From NCBI GenBank assembly GCA_022600955.1, contig JAHZJK010000017.1, positions 1-64,000 of the forward strand: 64,000 bases of DNA, given 5' to 3'. Under the pieces are notes generated by a model. The model was not told where the DNA came from. It was given only the letters and a program-made list of their open reading frames with translations, and did not search any database. Source of the stretch: Gammaproteobacteria bacterium. Its GTDB lineage: Bacteria; Pseudomonadota; Gammaproteobacteria; Steroidobacterales; Woeseiaceae. Both the position numbers and the translations under genes were made by a program. Positions 1-41,799 of the stretch are shown here, in pieces. Positions within the stretch are counted from its first letter, which is position 1, and each line of letters starts with the position of its first letter.

Positions 1-285
1 CGGATCGTCGCCTTGGTGAGCTTTTACCTCACCAACAAGCTAATCCGACTTAGGCTCATCCATTAGCGCGAGGTCCGAAGATCCCCCGCTTTCCCCCGTA
101 GGGCGTATGCGGTATTAGCATCCGTTTCCGAATGTTGTCCCCCACTAATGGGCAGATTCCTAAGTATTACTCACCCGTCCGCCACTCGACGCCTGGAAGC
201 AAGCTTCCATCGTTTCCGTTCGACTTGCATGTATTAGGCATGCCGCCAGCGTTCAATCTGAGCCAGGATCAAACTCTTCAGTTTA
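1..285 (-). rRNA. rrs: 16S ribosomal RNA, 5' part (truncated by window edge)
   Basis: The minus strand carries the universal bacterial 16S start: AGAGTTTGATCCTGGCTCAG lies at about 258-277, followed by the ATTGAACGCTGGCGGC block and the CATGCAAGTCGAACGG block. The 5' end of the mature RNA is placed near 284-285 by analogy with E. coli. The gene runs off the left edge, so only about 285 nt of V1-V2 sequence is present. The leader, boxA and promoters upstream (to about 640) show this is the start of an rrn operon transcribed leftward, away from the protein genes. Confidence 0.97.
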
Positions 286-17409: not shown

Positions 17410-18936
17410 GTGTCCAGCGTCGCAGTAGCCACAAGCTCTCAGCTCGCCGCTGATGCCGCACAGGAAGTTGCCGCCGACGGCGGTAACGCGGTCGACTGTG
17501 CGCTGGCGGCGTCGCTGCTAACAATGAATACCGAGCCCGGCGTCTGTGCGCTGGCTGGAAGTGCCTTCATCACGATTTGGCCCGCTGGCAATGATCCCGT
17601 CACTATCGACGGCAATGTCAGTGTGCCTGGCAAGGGCCTCGCCGACGATGAGCGTCGCGGCGGCGCTGTCAGCGTATCCATGGAGTATGGCGGGGGTGTT
17701 GAAACCCTGGTCGGCACCGGATCTGTCGCAGTGCCCGGGTCTCTCGCCGCACTGCAACATGCCTGGAAGCGCTACGGATCCGCACATTGGGGATCGATTT
17801 TCGCGCCTTCAATTCGAGCGGTGCGAGACGGCTTTCCACTACCTTCGGCCTGCCGCTACTATCTTGGCTATTCGGGAGACTCTGTGTTTGGCCGGAGTGT
17901 CGACGGTCATACCGCCCTGCACCGCGCGGATGGCACTCTTTGTGATTCCGGCGAAGCCATTCGAATACCACATCTGGCGGACACACTGACTGCGATTGCG
18001 GCGGAAGGTGCCGAACTGTTCTACCAGGGTGAACTTGCTGACCGAATCAGTGACCACTGCCGCGCGGGTGGCGGTGCAATGACGAAACTGGACCTCACAA
18101 GCTACCAGGCAATCGAACGGCGACCGCTGATGGCCGATATGGGCAACTGGCGCATTGCAACCAATCCGCCTCCTGCCGTTGGTGGCGCGGTACTGGCCGC
18201 AATGCTGATGGCGTGCCGCGACATAGAGGGGACCGCGTGGAATCGAGAGCAGCTGCACAAACTGATCGAGTCGCAGCGCGCATGCCTCGATTTTCGAAAA
18301 CGAAATCTGGATCTTGCTGAGGATGTCGGTGCCGAGGCCGCAAAACTCATAGCCGCTGCGACAAGCGGCCGCTTGCTGAGCCGCTGGAGCTCAGCGTCGA
18401 CAGTGCATACTTCGGTCGTCGACGACAACGGCATGGGCTGTGCAATTACCGCTTCGTCCGGCTATGGATCGGGCGAGATGCCTGCCGGCACCGGCCTCTG
18501 GCTCAACAATTGTCTCGGTGAAATCGAGTTGAATCGACGCGGGCTCGACGCCGGACCGCCTGGTGCGAGACTGCCTTCGAACATGGCACCGTGTGTTGCT
18601 CGCAATGGTGATGCTGTTCTCGCCGCGGGTTCACCCGGTGCCGACCGTATCACCACCGCCTTGCAGCAGTTCCTGATAAACCACCTGCAATTTCAGATGC
18701 CTTTGCAGAAAGCTATCGCACACCCACGCGTCCATATCGATACCAGCGGTATGGATGTTCGACTTATGGCGGAACCGGGTTTCGACTTGCCCGTCACGGA
18801 TTTGCCGGTGCATGAATACGAAGAGCTCGTGATGTACTTTGGCGGTGTCGGTGCGGCCGTGTTATCCGACGACAATGAACTCGCATGCGCGGCTGATCCG
18901 CGCCGGGAAGGTGGGACGTGCATTTACCGCGGCTAG
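17410..18936 (+). CDS. gamma-glutamyltransferase family protein without signal peptide
   Basis: 508 residues. The GGT N-terminal fold (SSQLAADAAQEVAADGGNAVDCALAAS) and GSVAVPGSLAAL are clear. The small-subunit start is STVHTSVVDDNGMG (about 335), where the threonine before V-H would be the autoprocessing nucleophile; most GGTs have TTH here, so this is slightly atypical. The C-terminal APCVARNGDAVLAAGSPGADR fits. No signal peptide is seen from the GTG at 17410, so the protein is probably cytoplasmic, unlike periplasmic E. coli Ggt. No Shine-Dalgarno is evident. Substrate may be glutathione or another gamma-glutamyl amide. Confidence 0.87.
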   Translation: MSSVAVATSSQLAADAAQEVAADGGNAVDCALAASLLTMNTEPGVCALAGSAFITIWPAGNDPVTIDGNVSVPGKGLADDERRGGAVSVSMEYGGGVETLVGTGSVAVPGSLAALQHAWKRYGSAHWGSIFAPSIRAVRDGFPLPSACRYYLGYSGDSVFGRSVDGHTALHRADGTLCDSGEAIRIPHLADTLTAIAAEGAELFYQGELADRISDHCRAGGGAMTKLDLTSYQAIERRPLMADMGNWRIATNPPPAVGGAVLAAMLMACRDIEGTAWNREQLHKLIESQRACLDFRKRNLDLAEDVGAEAAKLIAAATSGRLLSRWSSASTVHTSVVDDNGMGCAITASSGYGSGEMPAGTGLWLNNCLGEIELNRRGLDAGPPGARLPSNMAPCVARNGDAVLAAGSPGADRITTALQQFLINHLQFQMPLQKAIAHPRVHIDTSGMDVRLMAEPGFDLPVTDLPVHEYEELVMYFGGVGAAVLSDDNELACAADPRREGGTCIYRG

Positions 18937-20537
18937 CTGCCTTACTGTTTCTGTTTGTTGCCCAATTCGCACTCGCGCAGATCACCATCACGCGTGGCGC
19001 GGATTTGTCGGTCGATGCAAGCGGCGACGGCCGACTTGCGATCGACCTGCGTGGCGATATCTGGATTGTCCCGGGTGGCGGCGGTGACGCGCGCCAGCTT
19101 ACACACAATCTCAGAACGGCACAGCGACCTCGTTGGTCACCTGATGCGTCGCAACTTGTATATCAGGCAATCGATAACGGTCGACAAGGTGTCTGGCTGT
19201 ACGACCTGGAGAGCGATGAGTCTCGACAACTTAGCGGCCAGTCAAGCGTTGATCTGCATCCTGCCTGGCACCCTGGCGGCGAAAGAATCGTCATAACATC
19301 CGATACGGCTGGCCGGGGCTTTGACCTCTGGGAGCTGGACGTGCCCACGGGCTTGCGCTGGAAGTTGACTGACAGGGAAGGAGATGAGGCGGAACCAGCC
19401 TGGTCCAGCGATGGTCGGGATCTGGTGTATATCCATCGCCTGGGCGACTACTGGTCACTGATACTTCGGCGCCACTCACAAAGCGAAGAAGTGCTGCTGC
19501 GTTCAACACAAAAACTCGCTGCGCCATCGTGGCGGCCCGACGGCAGCCTGATTACTTTCTATCAGCAAGGCGATCGCAGTCAGCAACTCAGGATGATCAT
19601 CCTGGCGAAACCGCGTCTGATTCGCACCTATGCCGACGATGAGGGTTTTGTTACGTCTCCCGTCAGCTGGCAGGACCGGCATCGCATGTACTACGCCGCA
19701 AATGGTGAGATCCGGCAACGGCAGTTTGATGCCTGGAAATCCAGACCGCTCCGTTTCAGGGCAACAGTGCAACCTGTGACAGCTGCAGAAGCGAGCCGTG
19801 ACCGCGTGCCGCTGCCATGGCTTGATGAACCACAAGGGTCGTTCATTATTCACGCGTCGAGACTCTACGACGGGGTCAGTCAGGACTATCAATTTGACAA
19901 GGACATCCTGATCGATGGCGGCAGAATCGCTTCGGTACGAGCACATTCGTCTCACGCCGGTGCCATCACCATAGATATGGGAGATCTGACAGTGCTACCG
20001 GGATTCATCGACGCTGATGCCCGACTGCCTGCCGATCTCAACGCGAGCCATGGGCCAGACCTGCTAACCACTGGTATTACGACGATTGTCGGTCGCCACC
20101 CGCAGGCGACGGAATTTAATGCACTATGGTCAGGCAAACAGGTACCTGGGCCTCGACTGCTCGACGCGAGTGAGTGGCAGATTGGTGCGGTGTCGCGACC
20201 TGAACTTGATATCACAGGCGCGGTTTCGACAAGCCGCGCCACGGGAATGAGCAGCGGCCAGGCTCTCGCGACGCAGCTTCGAACACTGCAGATTGCCGGG
20301 CTCAACCCAACCCAGTCTCTGCGAGCTGTCGGCGTAAACGCTGCCGCCGCGATGCTGGCCGATCCATACCTGGGTCGCATCGCGACGGGAGCGGCCGCCG
20401 ATCTTGTTTTCGTCGATGGCGATCCGCTGGCCGCCAGCGACGACGCGCTACATGTGGTCGCCGTGGTCCGGAACGGCCGCTTCTTTAGTGTCTCGGGTTT
20501 GATTGATAGAGCCAAGAGTGCAGAAAGCGTCGATTAA
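18918..20537 (+). CDS. secreted beta-propeller plus degenerate amidohydrolase-like protein
   Basis: 539 residues, starting at GTG 18918 with GGTGGG before it and overlapping the ggt stop by 19 nt. A signal peptide (about 1-20, ending AQFALAQ) precedes a TolB/WD40-like propeller: repeated WSPDASQLVYQA, HPGGERIVITSD, WSSDGRDLVYIH, WRPDGSLITFYQ. From about 318 it resembles the beta-sandwich and barrel ends of amidohydrolases, with a C-terminal GRIATGAAADLVFVDGDPL. The expected metal motif after LPGFID (HxH) is replaced by ADARL, and most of the barrel is missing compared with the roughly 1000-residue relatives, so catalysis is doubtful. Confidence 0.8.
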   Translation: MHLPRLAALLFLFVAQFALAQITITRGADLSVDASGDGRLAIDLRGDIWIVPGGGGDARQLTHNLRTAQRPRWSPDASQLVYQAIDNGRQGVWLYDLESDESRQLSGQSSVDLHPAWHPGGERIVITSDTAGRGFDLWELDVPTGLRWKLTDREGDEAEPAWSSDGRDLVYIHRLGDYWSLILRRHSQSEEVLLRSTQKLAAPSWRPDGSLITFYQQGDRSQQLRMIILAKPRLIRTYADDEGFVTSPVSWQDRHRMYYAANGEIRQRQFDAWKSRPLRFRATVQPVTAAEASRDRVPLPWLDEPQGSFIIHASRLYDGVSQDYQFDKDILIDGGRIASVRAHSSHAGAITIDMGDLTVLPGFIDADARLPADLNASHGPDLLTTGITTIVGRHPQATEFNALWSGKQVPGPRLLDASEWQIGAVSRPELDITGAVSTSRATGMSSGQALATQLRTLQIAGLNPTQSLRAVGVNAAAAMLADPYLGRIATGAAADLVFVDGDPLAASDDALHVVAVVRNGRFFSVSGLIDRAKSAESVD

Positions 20538-20810
20538 ATTTACAAAACCAGATCAATTGAGCACGCATTTCCGAGTTTTTCCTGGTTTCAAAACGGATTG
20601 ATCGCGCTGATCTCCTTCCGGTTTCAGCACTCATCACAATATGTAGCATTTATCGCTGTATTTCAGCTAGATAGGGGATGGAGCTGCACCGCTGGATCAG
20701 CTATTTGCTATCAAGTTTGTCGACTTTCTTTACAAATCGATGACGACTGGATCAATAACAAGCCTTGAGCAATTGCTAAAGCATTGAATTGGCGGTAGCC
20801 CGCACAAGGT
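20538..20810. other. gene-free region upstream of the sigma-54 promoter
   Basis: No ORF of substance on either strand. Features seen: a spaced inverted repeat AAACCAG (20545-20551) / CTGGTTT (20582-20588), a small GCTGA/TCAGC pair (20606-20628), and the 10-bp perfect palindrome AGCAATTGCT (20768-20777) about 60 nt before the predicted transcription start. The region is AT-richer than its neighbours. It is the natural place for enhancer sites of a sigma-54 activator; none can be assigned to a named regulator. Confidence 0.4.
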
Positions 20811-20826
20811 TGGCACAGCTCTTGCT
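20811..20826 (+). promoter_or_regulatory. sigma-54 (RpoN) promoter
   Basis: TGGCAC (20811-20816), five bases, TTGC (20822-20825) followed by T. The GG and GC dinucleotides are exactly 12 bases apart, the invariant -24/-12 layout of RpoN promoters. The predicted start of transcription is near 20837-20838. No protein gene follows before a strong terminator at 21011, so the product would be a roughly 205-nt RNA. Sigma-54 promoters need an enhancer-binding activator; 20538-20810 is the available upstream space and holds a perfect palindrome AGCAATTGCT at 20768-20777. Confidence 0.8.
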
Positions 20827-20837
20827 TTTAATACCCT

Positions 20838-21042
20838 GCCCAAGCGAAGTGTAGCTGCGGTAGATAACAACAAACGGTCAGAAACAGGATTTAGACGCCA
20901 GAAGAATAATAACTATAAAAACAAGAAGATCCAGATCCAATAACAATAAGAAAGCATCTGTTACCGGTTATCAAATTCGCAGTTACCTCTTTTGTAAAAA
21001 AGAGAAATCCAGCCCCGCCGCTCACGCCGCGGGGCTTTTTCT
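20838..21042 (+). ncRNA. candidate CrcZ-like Hfq-sequestering small RNA
   Basis: About 205 nt between a near-consensus sigma-54 promoter and an intrinsic terminator, with no ORF or ribosome-binding site. It carries AANAANAA motifs: AACAACAA at 20866-20873; AAGAATAATAA at 20902-20912 (two overlapping copies); AACAAGAA at 20920-20927; AATAACAATAAGAA at 20939-20952 (three overlapping copies). This is the motif through which Hfq with Crc binds targets in Pseudomonas, and CrcZ/CrcY/CrcX carry repeated copies and are transcribed from sigma-54 promoters under CbrB. Sequence layout is seen directly; decoy function is inferred. In Pseudomonas the RNA lies elsewhere (crcZ near cbrAB), so the context here differs. 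It could also be an unrelated A-rich RNA. Confidence 0.68.
21011..21042 (+). terminator. intrinsic terminator of the small RNA
   Basis: Stem AGCCCCGC (21011-21018) with GCGGGGCT (21029-21036), 10-nt loop, then TTTTTCTT. A strong Rho-independent terminator on the plus strand that ends the sigma-54 transcript. It lies about 75 nt before the start of the next gene and so separates the RNA gene from it. Confidence 0.92.
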
Positions 21043-21117
21043 TGGCCCCGAAATGTTCAGCACTTTGCCCTTTGCTTCCGGTCCGAATAGGATCACTGAA
21101 TCTAACGGGGAGAAACC

Positions 21118-21948
21118 ATGAACAGGCAACTACACACTCGCGGGCTGACCGTGCTTCTTTGCATGCTCTGTGTGGCGGCATGTGGCCGAGACGCACCTGA
21201 CACCGAAAACACGGCCGAGAGCGCAACTGCCGAGTCCGCAGCTGTTGCCCCGGCAGCAGCGTCGATCTACGACCTCGCCGTCGCCAGCGAATCCCGACTG
21301 GACGGCGATCAAGAGCGTGATGCAGGCCGCAAGCCGGCTGAAGTACTTGAGTTCCTTGGCATTGCCCCCGGCATGGCCGTACTCGACATGTTTTCCGGTG
21401 GCGGTTACTACGCCGAGCTTCTCAGCAATGTTGTCGGCGCTGACGGTCGGGTTGTTGCACACTCGAACGAAGCCTATCTCAAGTTTGTAGGCGACGAATT
21501 CACAAAGCGCTTTGGCGCCGACCGCCTGAGCAACGTCGACATAATGATGGCAGAAAACAATCAGCTAATGCTGGATGCCGATAGTTTTGATGCCGTCATG
21601 ATGGTGCTCTCTTTCCACGACCTGGTCCTGGATGACCCTGAAAACGGATGGGAAAAAATCGACAGCCCGGCATTCCTTGCAGAGCTCTACAAGAGCCTGC
21701 GGCCAGGCGGCATTGTGGGCATCGTTGATCACTATGCAGAGGCCGGTGCATCCGCCGACTCTGGCAACACCGTGCATCGCATTGACCCGGCCATTGTCAT
21801 CGCCGACATGGAAGCCGCTGGTTTCGAGATGGATGGACAGAGCCAGGTCCTCCGCAATCCCGACGACGACTACAGCAGGAACGTATTTGAAAAAGACATT
21901 CGCGGCAAGTCAGACCGCTTCGTATTGCGGTTTCGCAAGCCGGGCTAA
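21118..21948 (+). CDS. SAM-dependent methyltransferase-like lipoprotein (COG4798 type)
   Basis: 276 residues. A lipoprotein signal (lipobox CVAAC, cysteine near residue 22) is followed by a low-complexity Ala/Glu/Thr linker (about 25-50) and a class I methyltransferase domain: the glycine motif AVLDMFSGGGYYAELL (about 88-103), and DADSFDAVMMVLSFHDLVL further on. COG4798 predicted methyltransferases commonly carry export signals, which is puzzling because SAM is cytoplasmic. The gene has GGGGAG before its ATG and joins the following amidase gene with a 1-nt overlap. Substrate unknown. Confidence 0.83.
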   Translation: MNRQLHTRGLTVLLCMLCVAACGRDAPDTENTAESATAESAAVAPAAASIYDLAVASESRLDGDQERDAGRKPAEVLEFLGIAPGMAVLDMFSGGGYYAELLSNVVGADGRVVAHSNEAYLKFVGDEFTKRFGADRLSNVDIMMAENNQLMLDADSFDAVMMVLSFHDLVLDDPENGWEKIDSPAFLAELYKSLRPGGIVGIVDHYAEAGASADSGNTVHRIDPAIVIADMEAAGFEMDGQSQVLRNPDDDYSRNVFEKDIRGKSDRFVLRFRKPG

Positions 21949-23477: not shown

Positions 23478-24248
23478 ATGTTCAAAGCTGTTCGCATCAC
23501 AATACTGTTGTTTGTGCTGTTCTTCGTCTCTGTTAGCACCTGGCTGACACAGGCACGCAGCACCGACTGGAACAGCAGCCTGTGGATCAAGATCTATCCT
23601 ATCAATGCGGACGGCAGCGAAACGTCTGAAAAATATATCCGCGGTCTCAAGACGAGCGATTTCGAGGGCATAGAATCATTCGTTGCACGAGAGACCGAAC
23701 GATACTCCCGTGCCGTAAACAAACCAGTGCGACTCGAGCTAGGCAGCCCAGTCAACGAGCAACCGCCAAAAATGGGAGCCGAACCTAACGTGCTCTCGGT
23801 AATGCTCTGGTCAATGAAGATGCGTTGGTGGGCGAGTTCGATCACGGATGCACAAGACGAAATCGAGCCCGATGTGAGAATTTTTGTGCGCTATCACAAA
23901 CCCGACCTCAACGTAAAACTGGAAAATTCAGTCGGCCTGCAAAAAGGCATGGTCGGCATTGTCAACGGATATGCGAGCCGACGCCTGCGAGGCGTTAATA
24001 ACGTAATCATCGCGCATGAGTTTCTGCACACGCTCGGTGCAACCGACAAGTACCGCCCGAATGATGGACAACCGATTGGTCCGGATGGCCTTGCAGAACC
24101 CGGGCGAACTCCGTTGTACCCGCAACGCTTTGCCGAGATTATGGGCGGCCGTATCGCAGAATCTGAAAGTAGCGCCTACATTCCGAAGAATCTTAAATAC
24201 GCGGTTATCGGTCCGTTGACTGCCAGTGAGATTAATCTCGCCAGGTAG
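23478..24248 (+). CDS. membrane-anchored metzincin-like zinc metalloprotein, unknown function
   Basis: 256 residues. The N-terminal hydrophobic segment (about 7-24) is a signal peptide or anchor. Near residue 178 the sequence IAHEFLHTLGATDKY has the extended zinc motif HExxHxxGxxD, in which an aspartate can replace the third histidine of metzincins. Further on, FAEIMGG resembles the Met-turn. I do not recognise a named family. It is 3 nt after the amidase gene on the same strand, forming a three-gene exported set with the methyltransferase. A protease role is inferred from the motif only. Confidence 0.75.
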   Translation: MFKAVRITILLFVLFFVSVSTWLTQARSTDWNSSLWIKIYPINADGSETSEKYIRGLKTSDFEGIESFVARETERYSRAVNKPVRLELGSPVNEQPPKMGAEPNVLSVMLWSMKMRWWASSITDAQDEIEPDVRIFVRYHKPDLNVKLENSVGLQKGMVGIVNGYASRRLRGVNNVIIAHEFLHTLGATDKYRPNDGQPIGPDGLAEPGRTPLYPQRFAEIMGGRIAESESSAYIPKNLKYAVIGPLTASEINLAR

Positions 24249-25158: not shown

Positions 25159-25710
25159 ATGGGTAACCGACTTAGCAAAATCTATACACGCACCGGCGAC
25201 GACGGCACGACCGGACTGGGCGACGGCAGCCGCGTCCCGAAAGATACCGCGCGCGTTGAGGCGTACGGGACCGTGGACGAGGCCAACAGCGCGATCGGAG
25301 TCGTGCTCGCGACAGAGTCGATACCGGACGATGTCCGCCGCAGCCTGACTGACGTGCAACATGACCTGTTCGAACTGGGTGGCGAACTCTGTATTCCAGG
25401 ACATACCGCCGTTCAGCAGGCGTTTATTGATCGCCTCGAAGCCGACCTTGATGGATTCAATGAAAACCTGCCGATGCTCAAGGAGTTTATCTTGCCCGGC
25501 GGAGGGCCTGCTGCCGCGGCTTGTCACCTGGCGAGAACCATTGCAAGACGTGCCGAGCGTCGGGTCTCGACGCTGGCCAGTCAGGAAAGTGTTCGACCCG
25601 AAGCTGTCAGGTACCTGAATCGACTGTCTGATTTGCTGTTTGTTATTGCGCGAGTACTCAGTCGTGCCGAATCGGGCCAGGAAGTTTTATGGAATCGAGA
25701 ACGCAGTTAA
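25159..25710 (+). CDS. ATP:cob(I)alamin adenosyltransferase (PduO type)
   Basis: 183 residues. The PduO-type signature is clear: KIYTRTGDDGTTGLGDGSRV at the N-terminus, VEAYGTVDEANSAIGV, LPGGGPAAAACHLARTIARRAERR near residue 120, and NRLSDLLFVIAR. It transfers adenosyl from ATP to cob(I)alamin to make coenzyme B12. No cobalamin riboswitch is seen upstream and no other B12 gene is nearby, which fits a salvage role. Its 3' end overlaps the convergent ArsN2-like gene by 24 nt. Confidence 0.95.
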   Translation: MGNRLSKIYTRTGDDGTTGLGDGSRVPKDTARVEAYGTVDEANSAIGVVLATESIPDDVRRSLTDVQHDLFELGGELCIPGHTAVQQAFIDRLEADLDGFNENLPMLKEFILPGGGPAAAACHLARTIARRAERRVSTLASQESVRPEAVRYLNRLSDLLFVIARVLSRAESGQEVLWNRERS

Positions 25711-40824: not shown

Positions 40825-41799
40825 ATGGACCAAGATGACAACCAACTTCAGTTTGATGCGCAGGGCAACTTGCGTCATCTGCTGTCGTTGCAGGGAATTG
40901 ACAGGTCGCTGCTGACCGAAATACTCAACGATGCGGAATCCTATCTGACGGAGCCTGGCGCACCACCTGCTCGTGGCACGTCGCTTGCCGGCCGTACTGT
41001 AGGCAACCTGTTCTTTGAGCCAAGCACACGAACGCGCGCGTCATTCGATCTGGCTGGTCGCCGTCTCGGCGCTGATGTGCTGAACCTTGACGTCAATACT
41101 TCCTCGCGCAAGAAAGGCGAGAGCATTCTCGACACGATATACACGCTGGAAGCGATGCACGTTGATGTCATGGTGGTGCGGGATGCGAGCGACGGTGTTC
41201 CTGCTTATATTGCACGCAACGTGAAAGACCACGTAAGCGTCCTCAACGCAGGCGAATCCGATGTTTCGCATCCGACCCAGGGGTTACTGGATGTGTTGAC
41301 TATTCGCCAACACAATCCGGATTTCGCAAATATGGCGGTAGCGATCGTCGGTGACATACAGCATTCACGTGTCGCGACCTCAGCGTCGCAGGCACTGCAA
41401 ACGCTTGGCGTGGGTGAGCTCCGCCTGATCTCGCCACCGGCACTGGCGCCAGATGCGGAACGGTTTCCGGGCGCGAGAATCGTCGACAACATTGCCGCCG
41501 GCCTGAAAGACGCTGACGTCGTCATAGCGCTGCGAATACAACGTGAACGGATCGGCAATCTGGACGGCGTGCCGGGCATCGATGAGTACTTCTCCAACTT
41601 CGGAGTCAGCACCGAAAACATGAAGCACGCGAAACCGAATGCCATTGTCATGCATCCTGGCCCGATGAACCGCGGTATCGAGATTGAGGGTGCGCTGGCC
41701 GATGGACCCCGTTCTGTTATTACGCAGCAAGTCACCAACGGCGTTGCAGTTCGTATGGCGGTGCTCAAGCGCATCGGCAAACGAATGAGCGGCCAGTGA
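40825..41799 (+). CDS. pyrB: aspartate carbamoyltransferase catalytic subunit
   Basis: 324 residues. Carbamoyl-phosphate binding FFEPSTRTRASFDLAGRRLG, then SRKKGESILDT, LLDVLTIR and VMHPGPMNRGIEI. It is the first committed step of pyrimidine synthesis. A regulatory pyrI is not seen; a GTGA overlap couples it to the PyrK-like gene that follows. Pseudomonas-type relatives have pyrR before and an inactive pyrC-like gene after it; neither is here. Confidence 0.97.
   Translation: MDQDDNQLQFDAQGNLRHLLSLQGIDRSLLTEILNDAESYLTEPGAPPARGTSLAGRTVGNLFFEPSTRTRASFDLAGRRLGADVLNLDVNTSSRKKGESILDTIYTLEAMHVDVMVVRDASDGVPAYIARNVKDHVSVLNAGESDVSHPTQGLLDVLTIRQHNPDFANMAVAIVGDIQHSRVATSASQALQTLGVGELRLISPPALAPDAERFPGARIVDNIAAGLKDADVVIALRIQRERIGNLDGVPGIDEYFSNFGVSTENMKHAKPNAIVMHPGPMNRGIEIEGALADGPRSVITQQVTNGVAVRMAVLKRIGKRMSGQ

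Follow-up and report, generated by a model that had tools for sequence, protein, structure and literature searches.

A conserved sigma-54 small RNA gene of Woeseiaceae with AAN repeats: a probable Hfq decoy resembling CrcZ in action but outside the CrcZ family

The window, by which we mean the whole 64,000-nucleotide stretch of Woeseiaceae DNA analyzed here, contains a small RNA gene between two protein-coding genes (Table 1). A preliminary description had presented it as a CrcZ-like element with a sigma-54 promoter, repeated AAN motifs, a terminator, and no open reading frame, and on re-reading the window every element named there was found in its place. The promoter has the form TGGCAC-N5-TTGC and the terminator is an 8-bp stem, AGCCCCGC/GCGGGGCT (21011-21018/21029-21036), followed by TTTTTCTT. 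The motifs AACAACAA (20866), AAGAATAATAA (20902), AACAAGAA (20920), and AATAACAATAAGAA (20939) are all present, although the first, located where the homologs vary, is not conserved. The lack of a coding frame was borne out by 81 homologs, in which the longest frame with a start codon has a median of only 16 codons. As described, the upstream gene encodes an amidohydrolase domain, and it has a tblastn match in 77 of the 80 other Woeseiaceae (f1) loci; the supposed lipoprotein gene downstream is a methyltransferase gene with a lipoprotein-like N-terminus, matched in 46 of these 80 loci, many of which have short flanks. In the alignment of homologs, the conserved RNA block starts 12 nt past the C of the -12 element, and sigma-54 transcripts are expected to start about 12 nt after that C. 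A covariance model built from 81 sequences and limited to the RNA body (R1) matches positions 20837-21040 with 225.8 bits, the window sequence being itself part of R1. Elsewhere in the window are the 5' part of a 16S rRNA gene (1-284, minus strand), truncated by the window edge, and a gene for a 256-aa protein without Pfam match (23478-24248), which is found near the RNA locus in both f1 and family f6.

Table 1. Features of the small RNA locus in the window.
Feature	Position	Strand	Basis or remark
Upstream gene: PD40 repeats and amidohydrolase C-terminus	18918..20537	+	Pfam
Distal activator-like site CGTCGATTAAATTTACA	20528..20544	+	overlaps stop codon of upstream gene
Proximal activator-like site TGTCGACTTTCTTTACA, TGTC-N9-KACA type	20718..20734	+	conservation among homologs
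IHF-like site TAAAGCATTGAAT	20777..20789	+	one mismatch to consensus
Sigma-54 -24/-12 promoter TGGCACAGCTCTTGC	20811..20825	+	Woeseiaceae: 29/29 BLAST-found and 31/31 model-found loci; f15: 9/9; f6: 2/5
sRNA transcript (predicted)	20837..21043	+	predicted +1 at ~20837, end within T tract; ~204 nt
P1 5' strand GTAGCTGC, pairs with 20979-20986	20851..20858	+	81 homologs
P2 hairpin: GGATTT (20887-20892) with AGATCC (20933-20938); loop carries AGACGCCAGAAGAA and AAN cluster 1	20887..20938	+	
AAN cluster 1: two (ARN)4 runs within P2 loop	20902..20928	+	AA at these positions in 76-81 of 81; predicted unpaired 0.91-0.95
AAN cluster 2: (ARN)5 linker AATAACAATAAGAAA	20939..20953	+	AA at these positions in 71-79 of 81; predicted unpaired 0.90
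P1 3' strand GCAGTTAC	20979..20986	+	same pairing data as 5' strand
P3 hairpin CTCTTTT/AAAAGAG	20987..21004	+	seen by eye in alignments
Intrinsic terminator	21011..21043	+	81 homologs
Downstream gene: methyltransferase, lipoprotein-like N-terminus	21118..21948	+	Pfam

The RNA is widely conserved within Woeseiaceae, a family abundant in marine sediment. When region 20540-21060 served as BLAST query, 29 of the 37 genomes of the genus, its own included, matched strongly (E at most 1.6e-25), as opposed to none of 23 genomes elsewhere in the order (best E 0.017); order here refers to the GTDB order, NCBI placing Woeseia in Woeseiaceae, Woeseiales. With R1, 31 strong matches (165-226 bits) were retrieved from 196 genomes of the order, all of them in f1, where they cover 31 of the 41 listed genomes and six genera; the BLAST-found and model-found sets overlap. 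The -24/-12 box lies 28-29 nt upstream of CCCAAGCGAA in 31/31 of the R1 loci, 30 of which have the proximal activator-like site and 29 both sites. Taken alone, the promoter match does not exceed chance (seven matches with at most one mismatch in the window against 7.04 expected), but we consider the small RNA gene to be real, with hardly any doubt, because its box is conserved throughout both sets. The window also contains a second exact TGGCAC-N5-TTGC match at 40974-40988.

Further homologs came from a pattern search, in which 114 stretches were chosen by requiring the promoter and CCCAAGCGA; promoter counts are therefore quoted from BLAST-found, model-found, and other-family loci, and part of the RNA 5' end was likewise a condition of this search though not of BLAST. 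Host records listed for 80 of the 114 name Woeseiaceae, Woeseia, or gammaproteobacterial or proteobacterial MAGs, with some chance matches elsewhere. Filtering for CCCAAGCGAA plus the terminator dropped chance matches (for instance in actinobacteria, Azospirillum, and Pseudomonas) and left 83 distinct sequences, of which the 81-row alignment omits one chance match (L041) and one copy with an internal deletion (L030); three true copies cut at contig ends (L015, L053, and L087) failed the filter. In three Pseudomonas stretches (L078, L110, and L131), CCCAAGCGAACCC comes after a sigma-54-like box and ahead of a gene that by eye resembles one for a TRAP-transporter binding protein; their likeness to the RNA 5' end looks accidental.

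Within Woeseiaceae, the conserved segment begins at the proximal activator-like site and ends with the terminator; it includes the -24/-12 box, the AAN repeats, and the terminator itself, features whose retention in relatives had been proposed as a check. The 5' block of the RNA, TGCCCAAGCGAAG, is near-fixed and the core TTAGACGCCAGAAGAA near-invariant; this invariant 5' end, together with GGATTTAGACGCCAGAAG, suggests that the RNA may have a further function in the family. It is nonetheless dispensable, since 10 of the 41 listed family genomes have no R1 match, including a large, 98% complete one (G005). Loss of RpoN was considered as the cause of its absence in the genus and rejected: all eight members without a strong BLAST match have RpoN. 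One RNA-bearing genome (G036, 76% complete) shows no RpoN.

Two putative activator sites lie upstream of the promoter. The proximal one is at most one mismatch from GTCGN6TTTACA and located at -90 to -104 from the -24 box in 79/79 homologs with enough upstream sequence, and the distal one, under the same mismatch limit, at -206 to -296 in 77/79. In 12/12 loci of other families and genera with a detected promoter (a set to which L228, L253, and L255 of family f6 do not belong), the proximal site is found at -90 to -92, accompanied in nine by a distal-like site. The spacing between TGTC and KACA is also well defined, N9 occurring in 59 of 82 cases and no other spacing between N6 and N13 in more than four. 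Genome-wide, GTCGN6TTTACA is not enriched, with seven occurrences, two of them at the RNA locus, and a reversed control equally frequent. Between proximal site and promoter, the TAA and TTGA columns of a third element reach about 1.5 bits over 81 upstream regions; based on what we take to be the IHF consensus, it may be an IHF site. The enhancer-binding proteins (EBPs) found in the genome include NtrC and PrsR above the cut-off, two GlrR-like proteins, and others (8 of 15 strong EBPs scanned). That activator sites and promoter are conserved although the RNA body drifts offers a direct route to the inducing signal.

The most distinctive trait of the RNA is its wealth of AAN triplets. The window transcript (205 nt) contains eight copies of AANAANAA against 0.75 in dinucleotide shuffles, only 1 of 2000 of which had as many; in the whole window, on both strands, there are 33 against 19.7 (0/100 shuffles as high). 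In the 81 homologs the mean is 7.1 (range 3-12) against 0.82 when shuffled, with p<=0.05 in 80 of them. Within the two AAN clusters, the third columns admit two to four bases, most of them three or four, with both purines and pyrimidines (as in A37 C29 T13 or G35 T25 C13 A7); in cluster 1, one triplet also varies at its first base. A fixed AA followed by a free third base is predicted by A-A-N binding on the distal face of Hfq and not by lysine/asparagine (K/N) codons. At least one (ARN)n run with n>=4 is present in 81/81 homologs (21% in a mononucleotide-shuffled control), at least two in 76/81, and one of at least six triplets in 32. The window RNA has four such runs in 205 nt, three of them predicted to be unpaired at 0.90-0.95 and the fourth at 0.41. 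Some copies depart from this pattern: AAN cluster 2 is missing from L027 and L028, as is the P2 3' strand; the copy of one genome (L030/L059) has neither the P2 hairpin nor the two AAN clusters, through assembly collapse or real loss; and in L068 the AAN tract has turned into an inverted repeat (AGTAATT...AATTACT, seen by eye) that may hide it.

In the 81 homologs, the RNA is organized by a closing helix, P1 (GTAACTGN/NCAGTTAC), and the terminator, which covary: P1 has 97.5% of its cells paired and two-sided changes in 3/8 pairs, and the terminator 98.9% and 4/7, respectively. Over 29 pairs we counted 45 two-sided cells against 8.9 in shuffled alignments (0/500 as high) and at most 14 in slid structures; another measure of covariation, the number of further pair types, did not exceed chance (27 against 25.1, 88/500 shuffles as high). 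P2 has 98.7% of its cells paired with one-sided changes only, a weak covariation, so its pairing is consistent with the data without being proven. P3 reaches just 69.1% since A1 is gapped differently, that is, misaligned, on the 3' side, and a CGG helix is weak (81.9%). RNAalifold likewise predicts P1, P2, and the terminator.

Outside Woeseiaceae, R1 matched weakly in nine genomes of family f15 (E 1e-4 to 7e-3) and five of family f6 (E 0.02-0.09), E-values of both covariance models used here being rough because of a short calibration. A match in family f16 (G429) was discarded as a terminator alone without AAN, as were second matches in f15 genomes (L249-L252), which are terminators of other genes. 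The promoter sequence TGGCAY-N5-TTGC is common to all nine f15 loci, which also have the proximal site at -91/-92, 8-12 copies of AANAANAA, and a terminator with eight T; eight of the loci have a second activator-like site at -225 to -300. In f6, box and proximal site are found in two of the five loci (L227/L256 and L254); no sigma-54 box was seen in L228, L253, and L255. The RNA body is kept in these three: L228 and L255 (genus g312) have a TATAAT-like sequence upstream, an apparent promoter switch for which loss of RpoN was rejected as the cause, RpoN being present, and L253 belongs to genus g306. From family to family the RNA body changes, yet all 14 loci retain AAN clusters and terminator, and 11/14 the sigma-54 box and TGTC-N9-KACA activator-like site; AANAANAA occurs 7-12 times in each of the 11 sequences counted, which exclude L253-L255. 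A second covariance model, R2, built from f15 sequences only, recovers the window RNA (44.3 bits, genome-wide E 6.6e-7) and the f6 RNAs (19-40 bits, two mainly via their 3' part), and its RNAalifold structure has a long stem of different sequence (GGTTTCTG/CAGAAACC) at the position of P1. The cobalamin adenosyltransferase gene of the window (25159-25710) has a match near the RNA in 6/9 f15 and 5/5 f6 loci, and the amidohydrolase was detected in f6 by tblastn in two loci and by eye in the remaining ones. Because of this synteny and the shared AAN clusters, the f1, f15, and f6 sets are most simply explained as one RNA family at one locus, the body of which has drifted.

At the level of the class, the promoter-plus-5'-end pattern turned up in two genomes out of 369, which belong to the same genus. 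R2 matched 25 of the 369, three matches being the RNA itself; of the remaining 22 genomes, 17 had their loci inspected (L262-L278), and none of these loci has a sigma-54-like box followed by at least five AANAANAA. Plasmids and viral contigs gave no match. Near the 3' end of its locus, a gammaproteobacterial MAG (L089) carries TGGCACAGGCGTTGC, TGCCCAAGCGA, and an AATAACAAGAAGAAA stretch; this may be a more distant member, truncated where the locus stops.

What might such an RNA do? Hfq, one of the genes that the preliminary description proposed to look for, is present in the genome and carries IYLVNGIKLQGQ and KHAIS, which we take to be the distal and proximal motifs of E. coli Hfq, and the RNA very probably binds it through the AAN triplets. 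In the mechanism that we propose, an EBP bound to the two TGTC-N9-KACA-like sites would activate the sigma-54 holoenzyme, perhaps with the help of IHF, and the promoter would yield a ~204-nt untranslated RNA. P1 would close a domain whose P2 loop and linker expose single-stranded AAN triplets that may fit the A-R-N pockets of the Hfq distal face; once induced, the RNA would bind Hfq hexamers and draw them off other A-rich RNAs. The net effect would be that of a signal-controlled Hfq decoy acting like CrcZ via another activator and apparently without Crc. We consider it probable that the RNA is a sigma-54-induced Hfq-binding RNA of this kind, CrcZ-like in action and external to the CrcZ family, and, by analogy with CrcZ, that titration of Hfq is its main role. 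Counting against this reading are the chance-level frequency of AANAANAA at start codons (given below), the negative searches for Crc and a CbrAB-like pair, and the invariant 5' end and core, which call for another role as well.

A different use of the same Hfq contacts would be that of a class II small RNA. Class II sRNAs bind the Hfq distal face through ARN motifs; here the AAN triplets would merely anchor the RNA while its 5' end TGCCCAAGCGAAG or core TTAGACGCCAGAAGAA pairs with target mRNAs. The near-invariance of both elements within Woeseiaceae would fit this reading, and the two class II features, ARN motif and intrinsic terminator, are indeed present in the window RNA. However, f15 and f6, which keep the AAN clusters, have another 5' end and a partly different core, although GCCAGAAG of the core is common to 7/9 f15 sequences. 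In addition, the two or more ARN runs exceed the need of a single anchor, and no 8-mer anti-seed is clearly enriched at gene starts, a weak test with counts of 0-2 in 427 genes. A class II sRNA is a serious alternative that we nevertheless think unlikely.

Common descent with CrcZ, the RNA being a true but very diverged ortholog, is disfavored. The sigma-54 promoter, several ARN runs, and the terminator are common to both, and the crcZ locus of G220, our positive control (cbrB and cbrA being named there by position), encodes an RNA with 11 AANAANAA and five (ARN)n>=4 runs in 396 nt. In contrast, the CrcZ covariance model RF01675 gives the window RNA 7.8 bits (E 6.8) against a cut-off of 95 and finds no match in its genome (G000), compared with 306.8 bits in G220; conversely, R2 scores the CrcZ locus at 11.6 bits (E 0.39). 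Membership of the CrcZ family is thereby not supported. Neighbors and activator sites differ as well, and searches for the CbrAB and Crc partners, suggested in the preliminary description, came out negative. Of the 15 strong EBPs, 14 were compared (all but L159) and none is a CbrB ortholog, nor is there a CbrA-like gene in 12 stretches around them; the best full-length match to G220 CbrB (38% identity) is PilR-like, beside a PilS-like kinase, and G220 CbrA matches kinase parts only (27-30%). Seven PF03372 matches were found in the 93.6% complete assembly, the best two ExoIII-like (L170 and L169) and the other five scoring 28-96 bits. L170 is closest to PDB 2jc5, with Crc behind, and retains GDWN, presumably a nuclease motif that Crc has lost. 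Nor are AAN motifs concentrated at start codons, where they had been expected: at -25 to +15, AANAANAA occurs six times against 6.4 expected, and at -60 to -20 eight times against 2.6, in 427 genes from 66 sources that are mostly orthologs of the same region in related genomes (mononucleotide shuffles). A review, in the part cited, calls CbrAB unique to Pseudomonadaceae (PMC8871633). Orthology with CrcZ is therefore very improbable. What stands of the original proposal of a distant or independent CrcZ-type decoy is a sigma-54 sRNA gene with AAN repeats and a terminator in a non-Pseudomonas lineage; the CrcZ family, the Crc/CbrAB circuit, and the start-codon motifs are not supported.

An sRNA of the GlmY/GlmZ type controlled by GlrR (QseF) would share the promoter logic (sigma-54, IHF, and several TGT...ACA sites), and the genome encodes two GlrR-like proteins (L151 and L160, 630 and 558 bits, under the cut-off of 763), while four genus members without RNA match (G001, G003, G004, and G010) also have no GlrR match. 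Yet neither GlmY nor GlmZ is among the 14 Rfam matches up to E 10, and the sites here read TGT-N11-ACA (N10-spaced TGTC sites 4/82 against N9 59/82), one base shorter than the TGT-N12-ACA of QseF given in the cited portions of PMC6075780 and, for GlrR spacing, PMC8745638. Moreover, G050 has the RNA and both sites without any GlrR match at 1e-130, all its 22 candidates having been scored, whereas G005, G008, G025, and G030 have GlrR and no RNA match (G008 and G025 being incomplete); up to 23 candidates were scored per genome, which makes most absences, G050's excepted, weak. GlrR was accordingly rejected as activator because its sites would be one base too short and co-distribution is missing, and we regard a GlmY/GlmZ-type RNA as highly unlikely. 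Finally, a gene for a small Lys/Asn-rich peptide, evoked by a frame that in many homologs, judged by eye, gives K/N codons across the AAN run until it reaches a stop, and by a 59-codon GTG frame running off the end in L023 and L137, has next to no likelihood and was ruled out by the free third bases, whose purine/pyrimidine swaps are K/N changes, and by the short frames, there being no ATG in 58/81 transcripts, upstream length changes that shift the frame, and a sole widely shared start (71/81), a GTG at position 13, that meets a stop at once in most.

If the RNA is indeed an Hfq decoy, it would be a second, unrelated RNA of the same design and would make Hfq titration a recurrent regulatory solution, one that could be studied apart from Crc, as the searches for Crc and for a CbrAB-like pair were negative. 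More tentatively, a sigma-54-controlled family of Hfq decoys with its own EBP and no Crc may span at least three families of a non-Pseudomonadaceae order, in which case titration of Hfq by AAN-repeat RNAs in response to nutrient or stress signals might have arisen at least twice and be a general bacterial strategy; we hold this broader view possible, though somewhat short of probable. Among the matches listed from open-licence papers, we found no paper on Woeseiaceae sRNAs and no CrcZ-like RNA outside Pseudomonadaceae. In the literature covered, Hfq-decoy RNAs of such design are known from Pseudomonas and Azotobacter (PMC8871633 and PMC4063720, in the parts cited).

Three known systems help to place this RNA. 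The GlmY and GlmZ RNAs of Enterobacteriaceae, about 200 nt in size, are sigma-54 sRNAs assisted by IHF and preceded by TGT...ACA activator sites, traits also seen or predicted in the window RNA, which differs by its lack of Rfam match, its shorter site spacing, the absence of co-distribution with GlrR, and its AAN richness. ChiX and MgrR, distal-face (class II) Hfq sRNAs, share ARN motifs and an intrinsic terminator with it, whereas the window RNA has more ARN runs, a sigma-54 promoter, and no seed found. Closest in design are CrcZ, CrcY, and CrcX (RF01675) of Pseudomonas and Azotobacter. According to the cited parts of the respective papers, CrcZ is a 407-nt RNA with six (A-R-N)n motifs (n>=4), bound via the Hfq distal face, that titrates Hfq (PMC4063720), and the cbrA-cbrB-crcZ arrangement is restricted to those two genera (PMC8871633 and PMC6296734). 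Unlike these RNAs, the one described here has no sequence match to them, half the length, another locus, TGTC-N9-KACA instead of TGTTAC/GTAACA activator sites, no CbrAB-like pair or Crc found, and no AAN enrichment at the start codons counted; like them, it has several (ARN)n>=4 runs predicted to be unpaired, a sigma-54 promoter, a terminator, and no ORF, and presumably serves as a decoy for the distal face of Hfq.
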